Positions 30,587 to 42,666 of a stretch of 44,300 bases of DNA are shown piece by piece; the first letter of the stretch is position 1, and each line of letters begins with the position of its first letter. Origin of the DNA: Alphaproteobacteria bacterium (GTDB lineage Bacteria; Pseudomonadota; Alphaproteobacteria; GCA-2731375); NCBI GenBank assembly GCA_029937535.1, contig JAPYPT010000005.1, positions 1 to 44,300 of the forward strand, in the 5' to 3' direction. The position numbers were made by a program, and so were the translations under genes. The notes beneath the pieces are model-generated. The model ran no database searches. It was not told the origin of the DNA and saw nothing but the letters and a program-made list of their open reading frames with translations.

Positions 30587-31171
30587 TCATACACGTTGCG
30601 CCAGCCAGATTGCCAGCTTGGTGCCAGCTTTAACGCTTCGGCTTAATATTTGGTAAGCGGGCGCCTCTTCGGCGCCATTTTGCAATGCCGTGTCCCGGTG
30701 TTTCAACTCATCATCGCGGAATTCCGCAATTGTCGCCCGCAGTTCGGCTTCGTCTTCACTCAGCCTGTCTAGTTGTTCTTGATAATGGCCCTCGATCACC
30801 TCTTCCACCGCCACCGTGGTGGCCATGGCCGTCCGCTCTCCCACCAAGGCGCCTACTGTGCCCAGGGCATAACCCGCCGCCCGCCACAGGGGCGATAGGG
30901 CCGAGGGGCGGACACGGCGGTCCACCACCAGTTTATCGAAGGCGGCCAGATGCTCCGCTTCCTGTGCTTCCATTTCGGCCAGCAGCGGCGCGCAGGCTTG
31001 CCGGCCCAGCACCGCCATTTGCCCCCGATAGATCGCCTTGGCGCCCAGTTCCCCGGCCTGATCGACCCGTAACATCGCGGCCACATCCGCCCCTCCCGTC
31101 CGATCGCCGGGCAGAGTGGCGGGGCGGGCCCGGTTGGGCATGTGATAGTCCAAAGTCATTTGGGCGGTCAT
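30587..31171 (-). CDS. coq7: COQ7-type demethoxyubiquinone hydroxylase (di-iron)
   Basis: 194-residue ferritin-like di-iron monooxygenase that hydroxylates demethoxyubiquinone, the penultimate step of aerobic ubiquinone synthesis, at the inner membrane. All iron ligands are visible: Glu in VDQAGELGAKAIY, ExxH in EAQEAEH, Glu and ExxH in EEVIEGHY and DDELKH near residue 160. VDQAGELGA at residues 36-44 is the family signature. COQ7-type enzymes are typical of alphaproteobacteria (others use UbiF), which supports the taxonomic reading. ATG 31171 is used; ATG 31159 is an alternative. It lies 10 bp after dsbB and is likely co-transcribed. Confidence 0.92.
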   Translation of the reverse strand: MTAQMTLDYHMPNRARPATLPGDRTGGADVAAMLRVDQAGELGAKAIYRGQMAVLGRQACAPLLAEMEAQEAEHLAAFDKLVVDRRVRPSALSPLWRAAGYALGTVGALVGERTAMATTVAVEEVIEGHYQEQLDRLSEDEAELRATIAEFRDDELKHRDTALQNGAEEAPAYQILSRSVKAGTKLAIWLAQRV

Positions 31172-31181
31172 TACAGCGGCG

Positions 31182-31688
31182 TCATCCTATTGTTCCAGGT
31201 TGCTTGCCTGCCCGCCGGCCGGCCACGCCAGCGTAAAGGGCCAAGCCAAGAGAGAATAGGACGTTGTAGCCCGCCATGGAAACACCAAACAGTGAAAAAG
31301 CGATTTCATCGCACCGGGTAACGGGAGTGGCCATGATCTGCGCGCGCAGGGCAGCCAGGGTCTGGGGCGCGCCAGAGGGCCCGACGCAGCCTTCGCTACC
31401 CGCCCACAAATGCTGCTCCACCCCCACATGGTAGACGGCGATGCCCGAATTAACCGCCAGGGTTAGCGCCGTCAGCATGAGTACCCATGGCGCCAGCTCC
31501 CGCGCCCTCGGGGTCAGTCCGATAAGGCACAGGGCAATAACAATGACGTAGGGCCAGCGTTGATAGATACACAGAACACATGGCTGCAGATCAAAGCCGT
31601 ATTGACTGACAAAGGCGGCGCCCAGGGCCGTGGCCGAGGCCAGTACCAAAAGCGCCATGGCTGTTGTCGGGTTGAGCAATTGCCGCAC
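31182..31688 (-). CDS. dsbB: Disulfide bond formation protein B
   Basis: 168-residue inner-membrane protein with four hydrophobic spans. It re-oxidises DsbA with quinone as electron acceptor. The first redox pair, Cys37-Val-Leu-Cys40, follows FDLQP and precedes IYQRWPY, as in the family. The second pair is Cys101 and Cys126 in the periplasmic loop (EGCVGPSGAPQ and TRCDE). GTG 31688 is preferred because GAGGA stands 7 nt upstream and it gives the normal N-terminus; upstream in-frame starts would add an unlikely Arg-rich extension. It begins 11 nt after the stop of the DedA-like gene, with coq7 immediately after, linking quinone use and quinone synthesis. Confidence 0.9.
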   Translation of the reverse strand: MRQLLNPTTAMALLVLASATALGAAFVSQYGFDLQPCVLCIYQRWPYVIVIALCLIGLTPRARELAPWVLMLTALTLAVNSGIAVYHVGVEQHLWAGSEGCVGPSGAPQTLAALRAQIMATPVTRCDEIAFSLFGVSMAGYNVLFSLGLALYAGVAGRRAGKQPGTIG

Positions 31689-31699
31689 GATGGCTTCCT

Positions 31700-32281
31700 C
31701 TACAAGACCAGCTTGACGACCGCGAAGCCGCCGATCAGCAGGATCATGAAAACCGTGAACAAGATGCCCAGATAGCGTTCGATGAATTCGCGGATCGGCT
31801 CGCCAAAGCGCCACAACAGGGCCGTGACGATGGCGAACCGCAGGCCGCGGGCGACGATTGAGGCCACCAAAAACACTGGCAGGCTCAGCCCCGTGACGCC
31901 CGAGGCGATGGTAATCACCTTATAGGGAAAGGGTGTCACGCCGGCGATCAGGACAATCCAGACGCCCCATTCATTGTAGCGGCTTTGGAACGAGGCGAAT
32001 TTTTCGCCGTAGCCGTAAAAGTTCAAGATCGGTTGCCCGATGGACTCAAACAGATAGAAGCCGATGGCATAGCCCGCCAGTCCGCCCAGGACGGAGGCGA
32101 CGGTACAGATCGTGGCGATCAACAACGCCTTGTGGCGCCGGGCCAGAACCATGGGTATCAACATCACATCGGGGGGCACCGGGAACACGGAACTTTCAAT
32201 GAAGGAGACGGCGCCCAGCGCCCAATTGGCATGGCGGTGGCCAGCCAGATTCATGGTCCAGTCGTACAAGGCGCGCAGCAT
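31700..32281 (-). CDS. DedA/YqaA-family (SNARE-associated/VTT domain) membrane protein
   Basis: 193-residue polytopic inner-membrane protein. The VTT/DedA core is visible: AVSFIESSVFPVPPDVMLIP near residue 25, the GGLAGYAIGFYLFE helix, and VLIAGVTPFPYKVITIASG with the conserved Pro/Lys re-entrant motif. The short YqaA type fits the length. DedA proteins support proton-motive force and lipid-carrier recycling. ATG 32281 is chosen because AGGA lies 5 nt upstream; longer in-frame starts give an Arg-rich non-conserved extension. It is first of a likely dedA-dsbB-coq7 operon. Confidence 0.88.
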   Translation of the reverse strand: MLRALYDWTMNLAGHRHANWALGAVSFIESSVFPVPPDVMLIPMVLARRHKALLIATICTVASVLGGLAGYAIGFYLFESIGQPILNFYGYGEKFASFQSRYNEWGVWIVLIAGVTPFPYKVITIASGVTGLSLPVFLVASIVARGLRFAIVTALLWRFGEPIREFIERYLGILFTVFMILLIGGFAVVKLVL

Positions 32282-41885: not shown

Positions 41886-42533
41886 TCAACCCAAGCTTCG
41901 CAAATCGTCCAGCGTCTTCTCGGCCTCGGGCCTTTGTGTGTAGTCGGCATCGATATCCGTGGCCCGGATGATGCCACCCCTATCGATGACGAAGCGGGCC
42001 GGTACGGGCAGGGTCCAACTTTCATCGCCGTTGAATTTTGCCAGATCGTTGCCGAAGCTTAGGTAGACTTCTTGCAGATCGGCCGGAACTTCGAAGCGCA
42101 GGCCGAGTTTTTCCGCATAGGCGTTGCCCGGATCGGTCAGCAAGTGAAAATTCAGGTTGCTCTTGTCCGTGCTCGCCCTGTTGTGCTCGGGCAATTGCGG
42201 TGTCAACGCCACCAGATTGGCGCCCAGGTCCTCAAGTTCGCTCAGAACGCCTTGCAAAGCATACAGCTCCGCATTGCAGTAGGGTCACCAAACGCCGCGA
42301 AATACCGTTATCACCATGGGGCCCTTGGCCAGCAGGTCGTCCGAACGCACCACCGCGCCCTGGGCGTTTTCCAGCGCGAAGGCGGGCAGCGGGTCACCAA
42401 CCTTAAGGGCCCGCTCCACCAGACCGCTGCCGCGCAGGGCCTGGGTCGCGGCACTCATGATCGTCCGCTTTTCTTCCGGTATGCGCTTTGCGCTGCCGGC
42501 GCGTAACTTATCGAGTTGTTCAGCCAAACTCAT
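41886..42533 (-). CDS. Peroxiredoxin-like (AhpC/TSA, thioredoxin-fold) selenoprotein with in-frame TGA (Sec83)
   Basis: 215-residue thioredoxin-fold protein when TGA 42287-42285 is read as selenocysteine. Upstream of it the frame gives VGDPLPAFALENAQG and MVITVFRGVW; downstream it continues without frameshift as PYCNAELYALQG. Peroxiredoxin-like relatives read WCPYCN at this point, so Sec replaces exactly the first redox Cys and leaves Cys86 (Sec-x-x-Cys). Later blocks LTPQLPEH and PARFVIDRGGIIR complete the fold. A possible hairpin directly follows the TGA. An AGGA ribosome site precedes ATG 42533. It probably reduces peroxides or disulfides in the cytoplasm. The alternative is a nonsense mutation, but the precise position and the intact downstream part argue against it. 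Confidence 0.85.
42253..42278 (-). promoter_or_regulatory. Candidate bacterial SECIS hairpin
   Basis: Just after the in-frame TGA, the mRNA can pair UGCAA with UUGCA, leave a U-U mismatch, pair GCG with UGC (one G-U), and close with an 8-base loop, GAGCUGUA. The stem begins 6 nt after the TGA and the loop contains G and U. Both features agree with the general form of SelB-binding elements. The fold was made by eye and has no computed energy. Confidence 0.5.
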
Positions 42534-42666
42534 GACAATTTTCCTTTCCCGGAAAATACAAATGATATTTTTAGGATAGCCTCCAAAGCTGCTTCAATCC
42601 ACGCAAATTCCGGTTACCAAAAAGCCTGAATTCCCGGGTCATCCCATCGCCCCCCCCACCCATGGA

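Follow-up and report, generated by a model that had tools for sequence, protein, structure and literature searches.

A predicted selenoprotein of the Prx-like UxxC class encoded by a gene with one in-frame TGA in an alphaproteobacterial genome

The window, i.e. the whole stretch of 44,300 nucleotides analysed here, contains on its minus strand a complete gene (41886..42533) which very probably encodes a single selenoprotein of 215 aa with selenocysteine (Sec) at codon 83, as judged from comparative sequence analysis. Translation of 41886-42533(-) starts at an ATG, ends at a TGA (41886-41888, minus strand) and meets one internal stop, the TGA of codon 83 (42285..42287, minus strand) in the context TVFRGVW-*-PYCNAELYALQ. 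The proposal in an earlier note that two same-phase frames split by this TGA are one gene is borne out by the single internal stop, and the joined 215 aa, as that note also held, form a full AhpC/TSA-type protein (Pfam AhpC-TSA, 82.1 bits, E 4e-23, cut-off 26; Redoxin, 64 bits). Three residues after Sec83 in the UPYC (UxxC) motif stands its partner Cys86, encoded by TGC (42276..42278, minus strand); its retention was correctly noted, the residue being invariant across 27 homologues. Pro178 (codon 42000..42002, minus strand, within VPARFVID) occupies the thioredoxin/ResA cis-proline position and is invariant in the family. A Shine-Dalgarno-like AAAGGA, read by eye, lies 8 nt 5′ of the ATG (42542..42547, minus strand); scans for promoters and terminators gave no result. 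Gene callers that apply the standard code would break this enzyme up or shorten it, at the cost of its active site.

The gene was compared across 61 genomes, that of the window and 60 relatives. Full-length orthologues with exactly one in-frame TGA occur in 11 of the 61, the window included, all in one shared alignment column; the other close copies are 56-79% identical to the window copy. An alphaproteobacterial genome consisting of a single contig supplied a twelfth TGA copy, with 49% identity. In all 12 TGA-bearing copies the TGA falls in the same active-site column and no additional stop is present, and the non-TGA homologues, with which the joined protein aligns, have a Cys codon in the codon-83 column. 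Random stops or frameshifts in relatives, which the earlier note had named as a refutation, are not what these copies show: they share one conserved TGA. The same comparison bears on the reading of the TGA as a true stop, either in a broken pseudogene or through a sequencing or assembly error for TGC or TGG. Such single-base errors do occur in assemblies as fragmented as this one (534 contigs), but the TGA stands in one column across 12 genomes without further stops, the codons beside it are frozen within the TGA group, and purifying selection persists past it: dN/dS 3′ of the TGA is 0.06-0.17 against the window gene and mostly lies below the value 5′ of the TGA. The frame downstream of the TGA is, on these substitution rates, under strong purifying selection. 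The conserved position of the TGA and the selected downstream frame refute a true stop, pseudogene or error, which we regard as extremely improbable.

A tree calculated with the Sec column removed grouped the 11 close Sec copies as a single clade (99/97) within the Cys forms, with Cys forms as sister; the twelfth copy was left out of this tree, and its root is not proved. A single Cys-to-Sec change would therefore explain the 11 close copies. The Sec form is also associated with the Sec machinery, since SelA scored above its curated cut-off in all 12 TGA genomes and in 3 of the 16 Cys-form genomes tested (Fisher p 1.5e-5, uncorrected for kinship and hence indicative only, because the genomes are related). 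Two Cys-form homologues (L035, in genome G048, and L113, in G241) each contain one in-frame TAG at unrelated positions; these are possibly assembly errors or decay, and both genes were left out of the evidence.

The host genome (5.58 Mb, 534 contigs, 96% complete) encodes the machinery that Sec insertion requires, and a lack of that whole set, which the earlier note had named as another refutation, is thereby removed. It contains a tRNA-Sec with anticodon UCA (68 bits), a SelA gene (582 bits) adjoining a SelB gene (434 bits) on contig C314, and two SelD genes, one of Sec type and one of Cys type. The Sec-type SelD (C274, L014) is itself interrupted by a TGA within GGGUGTK. The Cys-type SelD (C422, L015) is part of a frame of 787 aa that, upstream of SelD, looks NADH dehydrogenase-like by eye, and this frame resembles the Ndh-SelD fusions reportedly described in the GOS survey. 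Within the window Rfam gave no match and ARAGORN no tRNA, as expected because the Sec machinery sits on other contigs. These data weigh on a further reading, in which TGA has been reassigned in this lineage to another amino acid, e.g. Trp or Gly. A TGA open within a conserved frame is what reassignment would produce; against it, TGA substitutes only the redox Cys column, the host's other TGA-interrupted genes likewise carry it at known Sec or redox positions, and the Sec machinery is complete. Moreover, the selenoprotein gene itself and some of its orthologues terminate in TGA, in agreement with the earlier statement that TGA is otherwise a standard stop here; this ordinary use as a stop refutes reassignment, and its probability is negligible.

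Directly 3′ of the UGA lies a SECIS-like hairpin, UGCGGAGC-[UGUAU]-GCUUUGCA (42253..42273, minus strand), with its apical loop starting 19 nt past the UGA. The 11 close orthologues share it, with a GCAGAGC/GCUUUGC stem and the loop UGUAU; the window stem is a variant with one G-U pair, in L024 a different base precedes the stem and the 51-nt stretch has a different minimum-energy fold, and the twelfth copy retains this stem around the loop UGGAC. The hairpin is absent from the Cys homologues. It overlaps seven near-frozen codons (NAELYAL, 42255..42275, minus strand) in the 11 Sec orthologues, in which synonymous diversity, expressed as mean pairwise codon difference, is 0.05 for codons +4 to +10 vs 0.50 for the gene as a whole; none of the 169 seven-codon windows has a lower value. 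Conservation thus extends beyond the protein level, and the hairpin after the UGA is, as far as codon comparison can tell, under selection. Folding against synonymous shuffles gave mean z values of -1.7 for the Sec genes and +0.2 for the Cys genes; the window copy alone is no more stable than its shuffles (z -0.31), so the argument for a SECIS element rests on conservation and not on energy.

Criteria of the bSECISearch type ask for a hairpin directly after the UGA, with G within the first two positions of the loop and an apical loop about 16-37 nt away. The window hairpin, compared with these criteria, has all of these features. A YGUR apical loop with at least 4 closing pairs, starting 19-24 nt past the UGA, was present in 8 of 9 host Sec genes (the exception being that on C246) and after 11 of the window's 1252 other TGA triplets (0.9%); the contrast is descriptive, though large, because the pattern was written after inspection of the genes it describes. 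In the decoding that we propose, SelB carrying Sec-tRNA-Sec would bind the hairpin directly after the UGA and UGA 83 would be read as selenocysteine, while a ribosome terminating there would leave an inactive 82-aa fragment.

The structure model of the 215-aa protein (pLDDT 95.6) predicts a thioredoxin/peroxiredoxin fold, and its residues 41-215 superimpose on mycobacterial AhpE, the nearest solved fold, with Z 22 and 1.4 A over 151 residues. In profile alignments with Bcp-type peroxiredoxins and AhpE, Cys86 corresponds to the peroxidatic Cys and Sec83 to the preceding Thr/Ser position. The PxxxTxxC/U motif of classical peroxiredoxins is accordingly missing, Sec83 (or Cys) standing in the Thr position. 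The claim that the TGA is exactly at the catalytic position hence needs division: it is at the first Cys of CPYC, as stated, yet the counterpart of this residue in classical peroxiredoxins is the Thr and not the peroxidatic Cys. Alignments with ResA place U83 and C86 on its CxxC and P178 on its cis-Pro. Judged by the positions of Cys86, Sec83 and Pro178 in these alignments, the family combines thioredoxin/ResA hallmarks with a peroxiredoxin-like frame.

Fold and motif together lead us to favour, with moderate confidence, a disulfide oxidoreductase over a peroxidase. A true peroxidase, in which Cys86 attacks peroxide and Sec83 resolves, or Sec83 itself reduces peroxide, has a smaller yet appreciable probability. 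Two points speak for it: Cys86 falls on the peroxidatic Cys in Bcp/AhpE, and peroxiredoxins give the best fold matches. Against it, Sec itself stands where the PxxxTxxC motif of Prx has its Thr, and the invariant Pro occupies the cis-Pro site of thioredoxin, a feature shared with ResA. In CxxC and UxxC pairs, moreover, the nucleophile is normally the N-terminal residue, which as general knowledge also tells against the peroxidase. On the favoured oxidoreductase reading, Sec83 and Cys86 would form the redox pair, with Sec83 most likely attacking as the nucleophile, in a thiol/selenol:disulfide oxidoreductase or a thioredoxin-coupled peroxide reductase; a Se-S bond between the two residues would then form and be reduced by a cellular thiol system. 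No obvious signal peptide was seen by eye, and the protein is probably soluble and cytoplasmic.

The model for SelL-related redox proteins (NF040769) gave 25 bits, below its curated cut-off of 120, PHROGs gave no match, and a look at the literature on eukaryotic relatives (PRXL2B) found nothing useful. The genes flanking it in the window (cyclase/TPR, class II aldolase, hydrolase) do not stand beside the orthologues, so that the neighbourhood gives no clue to an operon or a substrate, there being no conserved neighbours.

Prx-like UxxC selenoproteins are, as the earlier note recognised, known as a class; the class dates from about 2004. They include 22 Prx-like sequences from the Sargasso Sea (PMC1088965), 225 ‘Prx-like 1’ sequences in the GOS survey (PMC2398784) and the entry ‘Prx-like thiol:disulfide oxidoreductase’ (PF00578, UxxC/UxxU) of a 2026 review (PMC13188914). 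With AhpC-TSA above the Pfam cut-off and the motif U83-P-Y-C86, the product of 41886-42533(-) is a new member of this class. It shares with the class the AhpC/TSA domain, one Sec first in UxxC and many Cys homologues, and differs from it in this lineage's conserved helical N-terminal part of ~40 aa and the signature FRGxWUPYCNAEL; this comparison with the class, whose reference protein is WP_010940744.1, is one of domain and motif. The same review has a separate cd02970 peroxiredoxin-like UxxS entry (MDX2448127.1; PMC13188914), also of the AhpC/TSA peroxiredoxin-like family with Sec at the first redox position; compared by motif, that protein has UxxS whereas the window protein has UPYC. The TxxU Sec peroxiredoxins (PrxU/BCP) share its fold and Pfam family, but their Sec is the peroxidatic residue and that of the window protein lies three residues upstream. 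ResA/TlpA-type oxidoreductases have in common with it the CxxC (here UxxC) pair and the aligned cis-Pro position; they are membrane-anchored or periplasmic, unlike the window protein, which is without an obvious signal peptide and has an extra N-terminal helical part.

Three family searches, together with SelD, revealed at least nine TGA-bearing Sec genes in the host, most of them of thiol-redox type, a lower bound given how few families were searched. Besides the UxxC Prx-like gene of the window (41886-42533, minus strand) and the Sec-type SelD (C274, L014), they are a TxxU peroxiredoxin (C309, L073), a UGC Prx-like protein (C262, L076), a second UxxC Prx-like protein (C246, L078), a deiodinase-like protein with the motif SYTUPPF (C259:7395-7676, minus strand, L081; PF00837, 52 bits), a SelW-like protein (C330, L094) and two AhpD-like proteins with CFYU (C186, L095; C351, L096). 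Separately, a DsbB-family gene in the window (30933-31814, minus strand; PF02600, 113 bits) is followed by a TGA and an in-frame open stretch, which is probably mere read-through past a normal stop.

No formate dehydrogenase match at the family cut-off, and none with a TGA, was found in the host genome; absence of a Sec formate dehydrogenase is not proved by this because the genome is incomplete. In common Alphaproteobacteria, formate dehydrogenase has been described as the main Sec user (PMC8124441). The host lineage is unlike this usual picture, with Sec in peroxiredoxin-, deiodinase-, SelW- and AhpD-like proteins. We lean slightly towards the view that it is part of a group of uncultured Alphaproteobacteria that is rich in selenoproteins and little described, and which would use Sec mainly in thiol-redox proteins and decode it with one SelB through SECIS elements whose apical loop contains G-U lineage-wide. 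For work on SECIS recognition by this group's SelB, the frozen hairpin codons of the 11 orthologues would make a clean natural test case.
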